Assembly (NCBI RefSeq): GCF_000317635.1
Contig: NC_019779.1
Span: 2,046,001-2,110,000 of the forward strand
Direction of reading: 5' to 3'
DNA: 64,000 nucleotides
Source: Halothece sp. PCC 7418
GTDB lineage: Bacteria; Cyanobacteriota; Cyanobacteriia; Cyanobacteriales; Rubidibacteraceae
In this document: positions 8,186 through 56,244 of the stretch, piece after piece
Layout of the letters: each line of letters opens with the position of its first letter
Numbering within the stretch: the first letter of the stretch is position 1
Notes under the pieces: generated by a model
Databases searched by the model: none
What the model saw: only the letters and a program-made list of their open reading frames with translations
What the model was told of the DNA's origin: nothing
Translations under genes and position numbers: made by a program

Positions 8186-9292
8186 TTAGATGCCAAACAT
8201 GAGTCGAGCAAGAAATTTCTTCTTCATTAGGAAATCTGTAGCAACCCAACTGATCGCCAAAACCAGAATTGCAAACATTAATAAATTAGGGGTTGACATT
8301 CGGAAGATGGCTTCCGCATCAAGGCGATTTTCAATAATTTGAAAACTGTCCACAAAAAGAAGGTGGATGAGATAAATGCCAAAAGAACAGACACTGAGGT
8401 TTTTAATCATTGGATGTTGCGGTAGATAATGGGAGAGAGCAAGAGCTAACAGCAGAGCCGTATAGCCTCGACTCAGTTCATAAAGGGAGATAGGTAGCAG
8501 TTGTCCACCGAATAGATTAATCATTAGAAATAAGGCGAGAGTCGTCATTAAATAGAGGATTGTTTGATTTTGAAATGAGAGATTAATTTTGGGATGAGTG
8601 ATCAAGGCTGCGATAAAAAGATAAGGTAAGCATCTGATCATAAAGGCAATTTCTACCAAGAGAATTCTTAAAAATTGATGATCTTCTAGTTCCCCCAAAA
8701 AAGGGATATTAAATAAAGACTGGAAAGCCAAACCAGAAGCATTATCAAAATAGTTTCCTGAGGTCAGGATGATCTGATAACCCACTAAACTCAAAAGACA
8801 TAAAGCAATTAAATCGCTGATCCGCGTTTGCTGAGTGGTTAACCCTGAAATGGGTTTAATTAATAGAGTCCCTGAGAGCAAAAGGGGTAAAAAGTAAAGC
8901 TGGAAAGCAGCCCCGCCAAAAAAAATCAGCGCGATCGGATCATGAAATAATTGATTGAGATTATCAGATTCATTTTGTAGTAAATATTTTAAGGCTTTGT
9001 AGCTGACATAAATTCCCGTCCACACTAAATAGGGGAGCAACAGACGAATGAGTCTCGGTTTGATCTGAAATTCTCTCCCTGTTTGATAGATTTTTTGAAA
9101 GGCTAAGTAGAAAGAGGTTGCTAAAAAAAAAGGAACAGCAAAACCAGAAAATTCTAAGATCTTTGCCCAACTTGAGGAATGAGTTGGAATTCCTTCATCT
9201 GCATGAAGAATGATAACGCCAAATATGGCAAAACCTCGAAATAAATCAATCCCCGTCCATCTTGGAGAAGGATGCCTTTTATTAATTTTCAT
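8186..9292 (-). CDS. Acyltransferase family 3, membrane-bound (polysaccharide O-acetylase type)
   Basis: The 368-residue protein has about ten hydrophobic segments and the N-terminal motif TGIDLFRGFAIFGVIILHA, in which RGFAI and the H of ILH match the acyltransferase_3 consensus. These integral membrane proteins transfer acetyl or succinyl groups to sugars of exported polymers. Its stop overlaps the unused upstream part of the lipoprotein frame, and it lies 38 bases after a glycosyltransferase gene, so co-transcription is likely. Confidence 0.85.
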   Translation of the reverse strand: MKINKRHPSPRWTGIDLFRGFAIFGVIILHADEGIPTHSSSWAKILEFSGFAVPFFLATSFYLAFQKIYQTGREFQIKPRLIRLLLPYLVWTGIYVSYKALKYLLQNESDNLNQLFHDPIALIFFGGAAFQLYFLPLLLSGTLLIKPISGLTTQQTRISDLIALCLLSLVGYQIILTSGNYFDNASGLAFQSLFNIPFLGELEDHQFLRILLVEIAFMIRCLPYLFIAALITHPKINLSFQNQTILYLMTTLALFLMINLFGGQLLPISLYELSRGYTALLLALALSHYLPQHPMIKNLSVCSFGIYLIHLLFVDSFQIIENRLDAEAIFRMSTPNLLMFAILVLAISWVATDFLMKKKFLARLMFGI

Positions 9293-9330
9293 AGTCAGAC
9301 AAACTGGTTTCTATAGCAATGTTTTATCGA

Positions 9331-10365
9331 TTACCATTGGGTTGGTAATTGCTTTTTGATTTTTCCGATAGAAATTTGATTAATCTTCAAAGCTCGTAAG
9401 GAGGTGATGAGTAATTCTTTTGCTAATCTTTGCCACATCCAGCGCAACCATTGAGCCATTTGAGCATAACAAAGTGTTGTTTCAGATCGATTTAATGGAC
9501 TACGTTGTATCGCAGCAAGATATTCCCAAAACCATCGCCATAACGGCATGACGATCTTGTTTTTATTAACGGGATCAAACCAGACATTATACTCGTAGTA
9601 ACCGTTATGTTTTCGCCCCGAGGCTTCCCCATAATCTCTGTAGCGGAATAGATACTCTGGAACTTCGTAAAACTGACCCAGTAGGGCGAGTTCTCCTAGT
9701 AAGATCGCATCAGAATTAACATAACTAGCAATGAGGGGCGTTCCCTTGAGTAAATTTGACCGTATTACTCCGAAAATGGGTAACCATCTATCCCCAGCTG
9801 GATGGTGTTGAGTTAGGTCAGAATCCGCTTTAATCGGTTTCTCTTTTAAATTAGATCCTTGCCGATCCAAGCGACCTTTATTAAAAAATAGCTTTTGATA
9901 TTGCTCAAATCGCTGGTGTGGTTTCGGTGAAGTCAATTGAAGGAGATTAGAAGATGCTTTTCGGATTTCATTTCCCTCTTGATCAATAAAAATAGTTCTG
10001 CTGTAACACAAAACCAGTGCCGAATTTTGTTCCAATACTTCAATACATCGCTCTAGATATTCTGGGGCTAGCAAATCGTCATGAGCCACCCATTTAAAGT
10101 AAGTTCCCTTAGATAATTGAAACACACGGTTGTAATTACGAGCTGCACCAAGATTATCATCATTGCAGTAGTAGCAAATCCGTTGATCTTGAGCAGCATA
10201 TTCTTGACAAATCGCTTGAGTCTTATCAGTTGAAGCATTATCTGAAATAATTAACTCGAAGTTTTCAAATGTCTGATTCAAAATTGACTCTAAGGTTTCT
10301 CTGAGGAAACGCTCGCCATTATAAATCGGCATTCCAAGAGTGAGAATAGGATTAGAATATCTCAT
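9331..10365 (-). CDS. Glycosyltransferase family 2
   Basis: Starting at 10365 gives MRYSNPILTLGMPIYNGERF, a normal family 2 N-terminus; ten upstream codons in the open frame look like untranslated sequence. ELIISDNASTDKT and VAHDDLLAPEYL supply nucleotide and metal-binding acids. It is a paralog of the gene at 2844-3821 with an insertion near residues 165-195 (RLDRQGSNLKEKPIKADSDL). Both probably act in repeat-unit assembly. The duplicate pair lies on either side of the acyltransferase/lyase block. Confidence 0.85.
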   Translation of the reverse strand: MRYSNPILTLGMPIYNGERFLRETLESILNQTFENFELIISDNASTDKTQAICQEYAAQDQRICYYCNDDNLGAARNYNRVFQLSKGTYFKWVAHDDLLAPEYLERCIEVLEQNSALVLCYSRTIFIDQEGNEIRKASSNLLQLTSPKPHQRFEQYQKLFFNKGRLDRQGSNLKEKPIKADSDLTQHHPAGDRWLPIFGVIRSNLLKGTPLIASYVNSDAILLGELALLGQFYEVPEYLFRYRDYGEASGRKHNGYYEYNVWFDPVNKNKIVMPLWRWFWEYLAAIQRSPLNRSETTLCYAQMAQWLRWMWQRLAKELLITSLRALKINQISIGKIKKQLPTQW

Positions 10366-10412
10366 AACTAGAGCGGAGACAAAGATGCTAGTCAATCGTT
10401 TCTGGTTGAGTC

Positions 10413-11267
10413 TTATTCGGGATAACCTAATTGTTCTAGGAGGTCTTTGGTAACTGCTTTAAAGTAAGAGGTTGTTGCATAATCAAAGTAGTTTTTCCAA
10501 TCTCCTGCTATCCCTTTTCGATAGTGGCTTTGAACATTTTCCTTACCCTGATTTCGACCTTCAGTTTTACTTTCAAACTGATGTCTTTGGCAAAGATCAG
10601 TAAATTCTTCGGCTGGCATTTGAATCTCTAAGTAATTAAAGAGTTGCTGCAAGAAAGAAGAATTATCCTCCGCTAAGTCTTCATAACGAAAAATCTTGAC
10701 ATTATCTTGCTCTAGAGACCCTTGCACCCAAGATTTTTGTGCTTCAAACGATCCAAATTCTTCTAAGCGATCAATGATATATTTCAGACCTTCTGTGAAA
10801 TCTAGATTTTCTAAATCGTGACGCATTTTCATGACTGGCTTGAATTTGCCATGGGAATACTTGGCAGAAAAATACCAAGACACAATGATATCTCTGGGAT
10901 CTCTCAAAATAAAAAATGTCTTGTAATGGGCGGGTTTAGGAATGGTTAAATAAGTGGGATAGCTAATATACAAATGCGTTCCAATCGTGCGTTTAGGTAA
11001 GGCTTCCTCAAAAGCAGCATAGCGAAGTCCTAGTTCCACATAAGGATGGACGATAAGCCCTGTATATTGGTAAAAAGTAAAGTCATTCAAGACGGATCTA
11101 AACCATTGGCTCGCTGTTTTTTGAGTACAACAATAGTAAATGTTATCGTAGGGAGATTTCTGGATAACTCCTAAACCAAAATTTTGATAGAGATTAACTA
11201 ATTTCTGTTTCGAGGTTATGAACTTATTTTGTAACTTTTGTAAAACGAGAGGACTCATGGCTTTCAT
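10413..11267 (-). CDS. Sulfotransferase domain protein
   Basis: The 284-residue protein shows NIYYCCTQKTASQWFRSVL (residues about 43-62), an altered PSB loop, and TFFILRDPRDIIVSWYFSAK (about 122-142), the classical 3'-phosphate loop of PAPS-dependent sulfotransferases. It is a close paralog of the gene at 14157-15017: both share SPYDNIYYCCTQKTASQ and a C-terminal SHYRKGxxGDWKNYFD. That last motif is the typical RxGxxGDWK signature that closes the PAPS site. It should sulfate a carbohydrate. An ATG 3 codons downstream is an equally good start. Confidence 0.85.
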   Translation of the reverse strand: MKAMSPLVLQKLQNKFITSKQKLVNLYQNFGLGVIQKSPYDNIYYCCTQKTASQWFRSVLNDFTFYQYTGLIVHPYVELGLRYAAFEEALPKRTIGTHLYISYPTYLTIPKPAHYKTFFILRDPRDIIVSWYFSAKYSHGKFKPVMKMRHDLENLDFTEGLKYIIDRLEEFGSFEAQKSWVQGSLEQDNVKIFRYEDLAEDNSSFLQQLFNYLEIQMPAEEFTDLCQRHQFESKTEGRNQGKENVQSHYRKGIAGDWKNYFDYATTSYFKAVTKDLLEQLGYPE

Positions 11268-11287
11268 TGATAATAACTATTGCTGTC

Positions 11288-13120
11288 TTAAGGGCTGGCA
11301 TAAAAGTTAGAGAGCAAGCCTTTTTTGAGCACAACCTCTTGATAACTACCTGACTTGATAATTTGACCTTGATCCATTAAATAAACGCGATCGCAATGTT
11401 CGACAGTGGTAAGACGGTGAGCAATAATAATCATTGTTTTAGTTCCACTCAAAGATTTAATCGCCTCTGTCACATATTTTTCTGTTTCGTTATCTAGCGC
11501 AGAGGTTGCTTCATCGAGAACTAAAATTTCTCTTTCGTGGTACAGCGCCCTAGCAATACCAACTCGCTGACGCTGACCGCCAGATAGCATAATTCCGCGC
11601 TCACCGACTCTGGTGTTGATCCCATCTGGTAAATTTTCAACGACTTCTGATAACTGAGCAGCTTGTATCGCTTGATATAATCTCTGTTGATCAATTTCGT
11701 GATCAGGAATACCAAAGGCAATATTTCGCGCGATCGTATCGTCTATCAGAAAGATCGATTGAGGAATATAACCAATTAAATTCTGCCAAGAACGAAGATT
11801 TTCGTAAATGGATCTTCCATCTACTTTAATATCTCCTTCTTGAGGTATTAAAAGACCTAAAATGACATCAACTAACGTTGTTTTCCCTGTACCCGACTTA
11901 CCAATTAAAGCAATCGATTTACCTTTAGGAATAGCCAGTGAAATTTGATTTAAAGCATTTTCTAAGCTATTAGGATAGCGATAGGTTAGCTGATTGAGAA
12001 CAAGTTCCTTAGTAAACGTTATTGTTTGAGAATCTTGATTAGTATTACTAGACCATGTCTTTAAAGAAGAGTGGTTAACAGTCTTAGAAGTAGCATTCAC
12101 AACCTCTTTTTCTAATTCTTTGAGCTCTAGGTATAATTGATCCAAGCTATAGCTAGAGTTCTTGAGCTTACTTAAGCCTGCAGCAATATTACTAAAGGCT
12201 GGCATTAGACGAATTGAAGCTAAAGCAAAGATACTTAAAGTTGGAGTTAATTGCTGCATATCTCGCTCTAAAAGCAAGGAAATTGAGGTAAATCCAATTA
12301 AGAAAAGAACGAGAACCGTTTCTACAATGTAACGAGGTACTAGTTTAAAGGCAAAGAAGCCAATTGACGCATTGGCATATCTTTGAGCTTGTTGATTACA
12401 TTGTTGTCTAAAGTATGACCCACAACCAATCACTCGACTTTCCTTAAATCCTCCTAAACCATGGTTAACCGTCCGAATCATTTCTTGTTTTGCTTCATAA
12501 AGTTCTTGTCCCCAAAAATGCATTTTGTTTTTGAATAAGCTAAATAATACCAACAAAGGAGAAATAATTAATAGCAAAATCACGACAGCTAAAGGATCAA
12601 TTACACATAAAAATAATGAAATCGTAATAATGTTAATTCCGTGAACCGTAGAAGCTAAAAGTGTTCCCAATATTCCATTAGCGAAAATTGTTGTTTGGTT
12701 GGTCACATTATTGATAATTTGAGCACTATTTTTATTGATATAAGTAGTATAAGAAGCATTTAAGTATGCTCCCATCAATCGGTCAATTAACTTTTCTTTT
12801 TGAGAATAAGTAAACTTAAATATATAACGTTGAACTAACCAACTCAATAAAGATTTAGTACAGAAGATCAAAATAATAAACAAGCCAACAAATGCTATAA
12901 ATTGACCCGATTGACTAAAGCCTAACTGAACATAAACTAAATTAAGCCAGTAATTTTTATGAATTAATTCTGAATGACTTGCTAAATTAATAAAAGGACC
13001 AATTAAACCAATACCAATCACTTCTACTCCAGAAACAAGAAAAACAATCAATACTAATACAAGTAATTTCTGTTTTTCTGCTGGAAGAATATAAAAAAAC
13101 TTTGATAAATATCTTAACAT
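11288..13120 (-). CDS. ABC transporter, fused permease and ATPase (MsbA/exporter type)
   Basis: The 610-residue half-transporter has an N-terminal region with about six membrane spans (residues 15-310) and a C-terminal ATPase: Walker A GKSGTGKTT near 407, signature LSGGQRQRVG near 515, Walker B EILVLDEATSAL near 535, and H-loop IIAHRLTT. It would act as a homodimer in the inner membrane and export a lipid-linked or amphiphilic substrate. It sits between two paralogous sulfotransferases and a capsule-type protein, so its cargo may be a sulfated glycolipid or oligosaccharide. The cargo is an inference from context only. Confidence 0.88.
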   Translation of the reverse strand: MLRYLSKFFYILPAEKQKLLVLVLIVFLVSGVEVIGIGLIGPFINLASHSELIHKNYWLNLVYVQLGFSQSGQFIAFVGLFIILIFCTKSLLSWLVQRYIFKFTYSQKEKLIDRLMGAYLNASYTTYINKNSAQIINNVTNQTTIFANGILGTLLASTVHGINIITISLFLCVIDPLAVVILLLIISPLLVLFSLFKNKMHFWGQELYEAKQEMIRTVNHGLGGFKESRVIGCGSYFRQQCNQQAQRYANASIGFFAFKLVPRYIVETVLVLFLIGFTSISLLLERDMQQLTPTLSIFALASIRLMPAFSNIAAGLSKLKNSSYSLDQLYLELKELEKEVVNATSKTVNHSSLKTWSSNTNQDSQTITFTKELVLNQLTYRYPNSLENALNQISLAIPKGKSIALIGKSGTGKTTLVDVILGLLIPQEGDIKVDGRSIYENLRSWQNLIGYIPQSIFLIDDTIARNIAFGIPDHEIDQQRLYQAIQAAQLSEVVENLPDGINTRVGERGIMLSGGQRQRVGIARALYHEREILVLDEATSALDNETEKYVTEAIKSLSGTKTMIIIAHRLTTVEHCDRVYLMDQGQIIKSGSYQEVVLKKGLLSNFYASP

Positions 13121-54723: not shown

Positions 54724-55025
54724 CCTAAGTTGGGGGCTGGTTTACAGTTCTTTGAGCCAGAAAGGTTCGCTACGAATCACATTTGCGCTTGAGCATAATT
54801 CCCATGTCACAATACCCTTTCAGTTTAAATATAAGATTACAGATCAGTTAAGTTTTGGTAAATTTTTATTCTTCAACCCTCAAAAGAAATTTGAGACACT
54901 TTTTGTTAGTGATCTCTTGTGCAGAGAAGTAATTTTCTTCATGACTGCTTAATGTTTGACACAATGTCGTATAAAATTAACAATGTTGATTTGAAGCGAC
55001 GTTACTTAAACTTAAGTTAGAAATA
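54724..55025. other. 302-bp divergent intergenic region, pstCA and petE promoters
   Basis: No gene is seen. On the plus strand it holds the petE promoter (separate entry) and a perfect AACTTAAGTT palindrome at 55009-55018. On the minus strand I find no clear Pho box. The stretch 54840-54910 is A+T-rich without recognisable motifs. Confidence 0.5.
54956..54984 (+). promoter_or_regulatory. Putative petE promoter
   Basis: TTGACA at 54956-54961 and AACAAT at 54979-54984 are separated by 17 bases, the optimal sigma-70 spacing. The gene starts 41 bases after the -10 box. The assignment is by pattern only. Confidence 0.45.
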
Positions 55026-55421
55026 ATGAAAAAATTTGGTTTAATCCTTTCGACATTCCTGTTCGCGATCGCAACCTTTGTCTTCAACGTTAACCCAGCC
55101 CAAGCTGAAACCTATCAAGTCAAAATGGGTGCAGACACTGGACAGTTAAAATATGTTCCTGAAAAGCTCAGTGTCAAGCCTGGTGATAGTGTTGAATTTG
55201 TAATGAATAAACTTGCTCCCCATAATGTTGTCTTTGATCCCAGTAATGTTCCCAGTGGTGCAAAGTCTTTAGCAAGTTCTTTAAGTGCGAACAAACTTTT
55301 ATTTTCTCCTGGACAAAGCTACACTGTAACTTTTCCTGCAGACGCGCCTAAAGGGGAATATGGTTACTACTGTCAACCCCACCGTGGTGCGGGGATGAAC
55401 GGAAAAATCATCGTTGAATAA
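55026..55421 (+). CDS. petE: Plastocyanin
   Basis: The 131-residue precursor has a signal peptide, MKKFGLILSTFLFAIATFVF, cut after AQA near residue 27, for the thylakoid lumen. The mature protein of about 104 residues has the first copper His in NKLAPHNVVFDPSN and the Cys-His-Met set in YYCQPHRGAGMNGK. It carries electrons from cytochrome b6f to photosystem I. It is complete and followed by a hairpin and then by a related lipoprotein gene. Confidence 0.95.
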   Translation: MKKFGLILSTFLFAIATFVFNVNPAQAETYQVKMGADTGQLKYVPEKLSVKPGDSVEFVMNKLAPHNVVFDPSNVPSGAKSLASSLSANKLLFSPGQSYTVTFPADAPKGEYGYYCQPHRGAGMNGKIIVE

Positions 55422-55437
55422 AACCTCAAGGCGCAAC

Positions 55438-55474
55438 AGTCCCTAATTTTAGCGAGATCAGTGAATTAGGGACT
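55438..55474 (+). terminator. Hairpin after petE
   Basis: AGTCCCTAATT (55438-55448) and AATTAGGGACT (55464-55474) are a perfect 11-bp inverted repeat with a 15-base loop. There is no U-run, so it may end transcription weakly or protect the mRNA 3' end. Confidence 0.6.
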
Positions 55475-55644
55475 GATGGCGTGAATACACGAGTCAACAC
55501 TGAGCAATCATCTCCAATTAAGGCAGTTATTTAAAAAATTGTTAAGCTAAAATGCAAGGTTGATCGCCTTTGAAGTGAGCCGATCAATTGCAATCATCAC
55601 TGGTTCAAGTTTTAGCGTCCTCAACATATAGGTAATTTCAAACA

Positions 55645-56244
55645 ATGAAACCAATTCAAACTGTACTCACGCTTTTTTTAGCAGTAACCCTCCTTTTAGG
55701 TGGCTGTGCTGGTTCGAGTGAAGCGAAAAGCCCTGACGCTCAAACTGCTCCCACTGAAGAAACCGCACCAAGCGAACAAACGACAGAACCTGTAGAAGAA
55801 GAAACCCCTGCTACAGAGGAAACAGCGCAAATGGAAGAAACCGCCGAGCCTGAAGAAATGGCTGCTGCGGAAACAGAAAGCACGGAAATCGCTGCTGATG
55901 TCGAGGAAGACGCAAGTGCGACAGGTGGCAAAACTTATCAGGTGAAAATGGGATCTGATACGGGACAACTGCAATATGTTCCCTCAAAACTGACCATTCA
56001 TCCTGGTGATACTGTCGAGTTTGTCATGAACAAACTTGCTCCCCATAATGTTGTTTTTGATAGTAATGGTGTTCCTAGTGGCGCGAAAGCACTGGCGAGT
56101 TCTCTCAGCAAAAACAAACTCTTATCGGGTGCTGGGGAATCTCACACGGTTACCTTCCCTGAAGATGCTCCAAAAGGAGAATACAAATATTACTGTCAGC
56201 CTCACCGTGGCGCAGGAATGAACGGAACAATCATTGTTGAATAA
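55645..56244 (+). CDS. Lipoprotein-anchored plastocyanin paralog
   Basis: The 199-residue protein starts MKPIQTVLTLFLAVTLLLGG followed by Cys21, a lipobox (LLGGC). A Glu/Thr/Ala/Pro-rich linker of about 70 residues follows, and then a cupredoxin domain (about 95-199) that is close to PetE next door: TYQVKMGSDTGQLQYVPSKL, NKLAPHNVVFDSNG, YYCQPHRGAGMNGT. All four copper ligands are kept. It is probably tethered to the outer face of a membrane as an electron carrier. A stalked plastocyanin next to petE suggests gene duplication plus a new targeting module. Confidence 0.88.
   Translation: MKPIQTVLTLFLAVTLLLGGCAGSSEAKSPDAQTAPTEETAPSEQTTEPVEEETPATEETAQMEETAEPEEMAAAETESTEIAADVEEDASATGGKTYQVKMGSDTGQLQYVPSKLTIHPGDTVEFVMNKLAPHNVVFDSNGVPSGAKALASSLSKNKLLSGAGESHTVTFPEDAPKGEYKYYCQPHRGAGMNGTIIVE

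Follow-up and report, generated by a model that had tools for sequence, protein, structure and literature searches.

A predicted lipoprotein plastocyanin on an acidic stalk, and its recurrence with a leashed cytochrome c6 among cyanobacteria

We analysed a window of 64,000 nucleotides of the Halothece sp. PCC 7418 genome (contig NC_019779.1, positions 2,046,001 to 2,110,000), in which petE, the gene for the soluble electron carrier plastocyanin, is followed by a second plastocyanin gene whose product has a lipobox and an acidic stalk in front of its copper domain. We call this arrangement of lipobox, stalk and carrier domain "leashed", and refer to the window genome, a single contig of 4,179,170 bases, as G000 and to the genomes compared with it by other G numbers. 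Our analysis confirmed that leashed plastocyanin and a similarly leashed cytochrome c6 are real, recurrent and undescribed in the literature that we found; they would work like known tethered cytochromes. We consider it probable (about 0.72) that leashed plastocyanin is a lipid-anchored electron shuttle from cytochrome f to a nearby acceptor within reach of its stalk; its lipidation, copper loading, membrane, partners and benefit we infer from sequence.

Results

A plastocyanin domain behind a lipobox and an acidic stalk

Both open reading frames (ORFs) lie where an earlier sequence-only reading of the window had placed them, head to tail with a 223-base gap (Table 1), and they are the only 2 matches to PF00127 in G000. 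The leader of the leashed protein, MKPIQTVLTLFLAVTLLLGGC, ends in Cys21 and is followed by a 76-residue stalk and a 102-residue domain. The stalk contains 23 acidic and 2 basic residues (E 26%, A 20%, T 17%, P 8%), the composition that the earlier reading had described, although its length of "about 70" was an underestimate. In an AlphaFold prediction from a 15-sequence alignment, block means of the predicted local distance difference test (pLDDT) were 41-57 over residues 21-90 and above 88 in the domain, whose predicted fold resembles Phormidium plastocyanin (target template modelling score 0.92). A tandem DNA repeat was sought in the window stalk and none was found.

Scores against the plastocyanin model TIGR02656 (cut-off 87.85) were 135.7 for the window protein (P0001), 112-130 for six proteins of the deep families described below, and 119.8 for P0004. 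The copper ligands His, Cys, His and Met and the lipobox Cys were unchanged in all 15 aligned leashed plastocyanins, bearing out both the LLGGC lipobox and the complete copper site that had been read from the window. With a halocyanin score (TIGR03102) of 41.3 against a cut-off of 93.8, the window protein is not a member of that family; nor is it of the cytochrome cy type, since it has a lipobox and a copper domain instead of an N-terminal transmembrane anchor and a heme c domain. Plastocyanins are as a family soluble carriers, from which the leashed form is predicted to depart because it retains the lipobox Cys.

The bacterial-lipoprotein rule that we applied, in a PS51257-like form (basic n-region, hydrophobic h-region, lipobox Cys), agreed with 15/15 leashed plastocyanins and 11/11 complete leashed c6 proteins, counts that are partly circular in that the lipobox had served to label the proteins as leashed. 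As a control, the lipobox pattern was sought within 45 residues before the domain of carriers labelled soluble, where it occurred in 1 of 73 plastocyanin rows and 1 of 87 c6 rows; the lipobox of the leashed rows is therefore not a product of chance. Lipobox-like matches 5' of L100, L128, L148, L151 and L152 were considered not to belong to the gene, and these rows were manually reassigned as soluble; the partly masked c6 row of G048 was manually reassigned as leashed. Lipoboxes were read in loci whose DNA was read, so that every tally of leashed forms is a minimum.

Between G000 and G004, the domain of leashed plastocyanin is under purifying selection (nonsynonymous divergence, dN, 0.074; synonymous divergence, dS, 0.88; dN/dS ~0.08); the corresponding values for petE were dN 0.077 and dS 1.47.

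One genome of the genus has only the leashed form intact

We compared six genomes of the window genus. The petE-leashed pair is present in G000 and G004; G001, G003 and G005 (the last 85% complete) have soluble petE only. In G002, an intact leashed gene (187 residues) lies beside a petE remnant comprising the last 65 residues, which has neither a signal peptide nor the first His ligand. The 5' part of this remnant (L012 1498-1695, minus strand) has been replaced by unrelated sequence, and its 3' part is 81% identical over 59 residues. As G002 is one contig of 3,781,008 bases, in which PF00127 matches only the leashed gene and the remnant, this genome has no intact plastocyanin other than the leashed one. 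The proposal that the same pair should be sought in related genomes was thus rewarded, with the pair itself in G004 and the leashed gene next to a truncated petE in G002. The window protein matched its full-length relatives at 81% (G004) and 82% (G002) identity in the search, and at 81% and 79% in the alignment.

The window pair is flanked by a pst phosphate-transport gene and by a gene that we take to be hdac. The hdac gene also flanks petE in G002, G004, G003 and G005, as does pst in all of these but G005, where a short contig piece was read; neither neighbour was seen in 14 kb in G001. Given the petE flanks common to the sister genomes, the leashed gene occupies the place expected of a tandem petE copy. 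The careful tree placed the genus's plastocyanins, leashed and soluble alike, in a single starred clade (98/90), and within it the three leashed proteins grouped together (100/98). A locus search of genome contigs returned only distant cupredoxins of other phyla, a result that may leave out near genomes.

Leashed cytochromes c6

A PF13442 scan of nine family genomes showed that G000, G002 and G004 each encode a lipoprotein with an acidic stalk of 36-45 residues and a cytochrome c6 domain. Among the matches listed, no leashed c6 was seen in G001 or G003, which have ordinary c6, and G005 had no c6 of any kind; among those listed for the 388 genomes of the order, full-length matches to the leashed c6 of the genus came only from G000, G002 and G004. 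The three genomes with leashed plastocyanin thus also have leashed c6, and their three sisters show neither. Judging from these sequences, the soluble copper/iron carrier pair is mirrored by a leashed pair in the same genomes. In a quick tree, the leashed c6 of the genus was on a long branch distant from its soluble c6, and so, unlike leashed plastocyanin, it is not a fresh copy. The G000 protein (L058 1315-1770, plus strand; G000:C1:3465100-3465552) has a two-residue insertion before its heme motif, CTQCH, relative to ordinary c6, and its gene is directly 3' of an ORF that is presumably DoxX-like.

Leashed c6 was also found in at least five (G305, G604, G582, G607, G585) of the 89 genomes of the Nostocaceae-like family f33, where the c6 matches began at the leader, with a lipobox and stalks of 52-90 residues; plastocyanin in these five is soluble only, and G607 is listed as 38% contaminated. 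In four f33 genomes (L211-L214), a tetratricopeptide-repeat (TPR) gene of ~305 codons lies 3' of leashed c6 on the same strand; for L213 and L214, Pfam confirmed the repeat. Apparent long forms in G007 and in some Nostocaceae-like rows were discounted, as their length came from open frame 5' of the start. A class-wide search with a leashed c6 (E 1e-24) missed the known leashed c6 of G000 and supports no claim of absence.

All 12 leashed c6 domains retain CXXCH, the Met ligand and the Gln of QVxNGK..MP, which we take to be position 52. Gln rather than Val, Ile or Leu at this position is taken as a mark of high-potential c6. Five leashed c6 proteins were scored with the PetJ profile NF045930 (cut-off 135), the first ~23 positions of which represent a signal peptide absent from them: P0006 reached 138.6, P0003 128.8, P0005 125.6, L213 131.7 and L057 126.0.

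Deep families and Gloeobacter

In a class sample of 194 genomes, with follow-up on 15, leashed plastocyanin was found in at least eight of the nine sampled genomes of families f46 (G400, G419, G432, G466, G494), f60 (G445) and f61 (G476, G485); it was not seen in the f46 genome G455 (94% complete). In seven of the eight there is a soluble plastocyanin as well; the second match of G445 is a fragment at a contig edge. We treated G400 (4,659,019 bases) and G432 (4,724,791) as Gloeobacter violaceus PCC 7421 and G. kilaueensis JS1. Stalks in these families are shorter (33-60 residues) and less acidic than that of the window, and the Gloeobacter stalk is nearly uncharged (net -1). According to the literature, Gloeobacter has no thylakoids and houses both photosynthesis and respiration in its cytoplasmic membrane. 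The genome paper of G. kilaueensis makes no mention of plastocyanin or lipoprotein.

Both leashed carriers side by side in genus g41

Leashed plastocyanin is present in all four genomes found in genus g41 of family f14 (G048, G088, G159, G184), which is unrelated to the window genus, with stalks of 73-99 residues; that of G159 is a 13-residue (39-base) tandem repeat. Leashed c6 lies ~300 bases 3' of leashed plastocyanin (partly masked in G048), and the leaders and stalk starts of the two are near-identical, as if one anchor-and-stalk unit had been fitted onto two different carriers. PF00127 found no plastocyanin besides the leashed one in G088, G159 and G184; G048 additionally has a soluble petE adjoining petJ.

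All four genomes (L141, L143, L144, L146) also encode an additional c6-like protein that is extended at its C terminus; the extension finishes in a basic, aromatic tail (KPKKRSFWRSFF-like) and may be a different means of membrane attachment. Just 3' of the leashed pair in G088 (L077, flank 8692-12151) are transposon-like ORFs, presumably of TnpB type.

At least two probable origins of leashed plastocyanin

A single old origin of all 15 leashed plastocyanins was rejected by the approximately unbiased (AU) test at a cost of 102 log-likelihood units (p 7.9e-6), as was one leashed clade of the window genus and the deep families (p 4.7e-5). Single clades were not rejected for the window genus with g41 (0.31) or for g41 with the deep families (0.109), and many forks of the plastocyanin tree are open. 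The test used a quick tree of 83 rows and 102 columns that left out two non-cyanobacterial rows, four divergent f52 rows and the broken petE of G002. These rejections support at least two origins of leashed plastocyanin, and three or more are likely.

Discussion

We propose that a lipid on Cys21 and the disordered stalk would hold the window protein at an energy-converting membrane, on its periplasmic or lumenal side. The protein would take up electrons from cytochrome f of the cytochrome b6f complex, swing within the reach of the stalk while sliding in the plane of the membrane, and pass the electrons to an acceptor close by. Photosystem I is the most likely acceptor, and cytochrome oxidase is a second possible one. 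Confinement to a shell around the anchor would raise the local concentration at cytochrome f and at the acceptor, and the tether would prevent loss of the carrier from the periplasm. The window protein probably originated by tandem duplication of petE together with gain of a lipoprotein leader and stalk. CyanoQ provides a precedent for a lumenal-side lipoprotein at cyanobacterial photosystem II.

Stalk lengths range over 33-99 residues in leashed plastocyanin (net charge -1 to -29) and 36-116 in leashed c6, close to the length of the cytochrome cy linker (69). In the work on cytochrome cy, rapid delivery of electrons to the reaction centre required a 69-residue linker, and ~45 residues were enough for the oxidase. 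By this yardstick, which is a guide only as the geometry differs, the stalks of the window (76) and of g41 (73-99) would permit photosynthetic donation, those of Gloeobacter (33-60) would be borderline, and the 36-45 residues of leashed c6 in the window genus would be better suited to an oxidase.

The sequence-only reading had suggested a membrane-tethered carrier of restricted range, serving either the plasma-membrane chain or a fixed photosystem partner. Leashed c6 paralogues, independent recurrence and genomes whose sole intact plastocyanin is leashed all favour the tethered carrier; between the two partners the sequence does not choose. Several observations weigh against a shuttle from cytochrome f. 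Half of the genus (G001, G003, G005) has no leashed form, which makes it dispensable, and soluble petE is still present in G000 and G004. No redox-complex gene that would name a partner was seen beside leashed carriers among the 18 neighbours scanned, and the electrons could go to an oxidase or to a target in the outer membrane. Finally, the leashed plastocyanin is more closely related to its own petE than to the other leashed ones, so that function could differ between lineages despite the common architecture.

A different assignment, which we regard as unlikely, is a respiratory role for the leashed proteins as donors to cytochrome oxidase of the cytoplasmic membrane, with the thylakoid left to soluble petE and petJ. 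Halophiles need respiration for salt export, and a soluble c6, present in at least G002, G088 and G159, could do the photosynthetic work. A purely respiratory copy, however, does not by itself explain G002, G088, G159 and G184, where the only intact plastocyanin found is leashed; in Gloeobacter the argument does not discriminate, because its two chains share one membrane. It is improbable that these are lipoproteins of the outer membrane or cell surface that store or sense copper or transfer electrons outside the cell, rather than photosynthetic carriers. A lipoprotein with a long acidic stalk rich in Thr and Pro would suit that role, as would the Ala that follows Cys21, which by the E. coli rule gives no inner-membrane retention. 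Yet the domain passes the plastocyanin equivalog model, two leashed c6 proteins (G585, G607) have the E. coli inner-membrane signal, Asp, after the Cys, and copper storage leaves unexplained why these genomes also encode a heme carrier of high-potential c6 type that is built in parallel fashion.

Halophile exoproteins often carry acidic extensions, and the stalk could in principle be a halophilic adaptation of a soluble protein released by an ordinary cleaved Sec signal. This we judge highly improbable, given a lipobox Cys that is invariant across 15 leashed plastocyanins from three groups, the rarity of the pattern (1/73) in soluble ones, and the same layout with a stalk net charge of -1 in Gloeobacter, of which G. 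kilaueensis comes from a lava cave. That the leashed gene is a redundant or decaying duplicate without function is scarcely credible: its absence from half of the genus would fit, but the domain dN/dS of ~0.08 between G000 and G004 does not, and in G002 it is petE that decays and the leashed copy that is intact.

We found no description of a membrane-leashed plastocyanin in cyanobacteria in the open-licence literature, and the text of a paper on the c6 family contains no lipoprotein, anchor or linker; single leashed members may already be labelled plastocyanin in sequence databases. The earlier statement that no example had been described therefore holds for cyanobacterial plastocyanin within that literature, but not for the working principle, for which two tethered cytochromes are described. 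Cytochrome cy of Rhodobacter capsulatus likewise has its carrier domain tied to the p side of the membrane through a long, flexible stretch of 69 residues, and c2 is its soluble counterpart; it differs in its transmembrane-helix anchor, its heme and its anoxygenic phototrophic host, where leashed plastocyanin combines a copper domain with a predicted lipid anchor. Heliobacterial cytochrome c553 is a lipid-tethered donor to a type I reaction centre in a host without thylakoids, but is a heme protein of a firmicute. The auracyanins of Chloroflexus are type-1 copper carriers of photosynthetic electron transport with paired isoforms, and their partner is alternative complex III. Cyanobacterial PetE shares the domain family and ligands, the nearest solved structures being Phormidium and Anabaena plastocyanins; unlike the leashed form it is soluble, with a cleaved signal peptide and no stalk. 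Halocyanin and lipoprotein cupredoxins of archaea and Gemmatimonadota (L014, L015) combine a lipobox, a low-complexity linker and a cupredoxin domain, but are far off in the tree and separated by the TIGR03102 result. Two such lipoprotein cupredoxins were seen in metagenome genomes, at L014 2948-3493 (plus strand; Gemmatimonadales) and L015 2852-3364 (plus strand; Halobacteriales).

Textbooks treat plastocyanin and c6 as free carriers. So does a review, which suggests the closed thylakoid as the reason that photosystem I can do without tethered donors. The leashed forms of the thylakoid-less Gloeobacter fit this idea and make it testable; those in thylakoid-bearing cyanobacteria challenge it. 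We tentatively suggest, while holding the opposite somewhat likelier, that leashed plastocyanin and c6 may be lipid-tethered donors through which oxygenic photosynthesis has repeatedly gained a second way of donating electrons, one that is independent of a closed lumen, present as a soluble-plus-leashed pair in the Gloeobacter lineage, re-invented in organisms with thylakoids and sometimes replacing soluble plastocyanin. G002 offers a natural strain with no intact plastocyanin besides the leashed one, and the variation in stalk length and charge is a natural series for studying tether reach, and tethering versus electrostatic steering at high salt. Leashed carriers are also ready-made parts for electron-transfer wiring in engineered photosynthesis.

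Features of the window pair

Copper-control sites at the pair were sought by consensus scans alone, with a result no better than chance. The remaining features are collected in Table 1, including a stretch just 5' of the leashed gene that is conserved in three genomes.

Table 1. Coordinates of the two plastocyanin genes and associated features in the window.
Feature	Position	Strand	Evidence
Weak sigma-70-like site 5' of petE (5 such sites in the region, 3.0 expected)	54956..54984	+	Consensus scan
petE, soluble plastocyanin precursor, 131 residues	55026..55421	+	ORF; Sec-type signal peptide, no lipobox; TIGR02656 141.2 bits; PF00127
Conserved stretch just 5' of the leashed gene (CCTCA..ATATAGG...TTC.AAAC)	55619..55644	+	Three-sequence alignment with G004 and G002
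Leashed plastocyanin gene, 199 residues	55645..56244	+	ORF; TIGR02656 135.7 bits (cut-off 87.85); relatives in G004 and G002
Lipoprotein signal peptide, lipobox LLGGC, predicted lipidation on Cys21 (codon 55705-55707)	55645..55707	+	Sequence; Cys21 invariant in 15/15; lipobox rule
Acidic stalk (E/A/T/S/P), 76 residues, net charge -21, predicted disordered	55708..55935	+	Composition; AlphaFold pLDDT
Plastocyanin domain, copper ligands His134, Cys184, His187, Met192	55936..56241	+	Profiles; alignment; predicted fold
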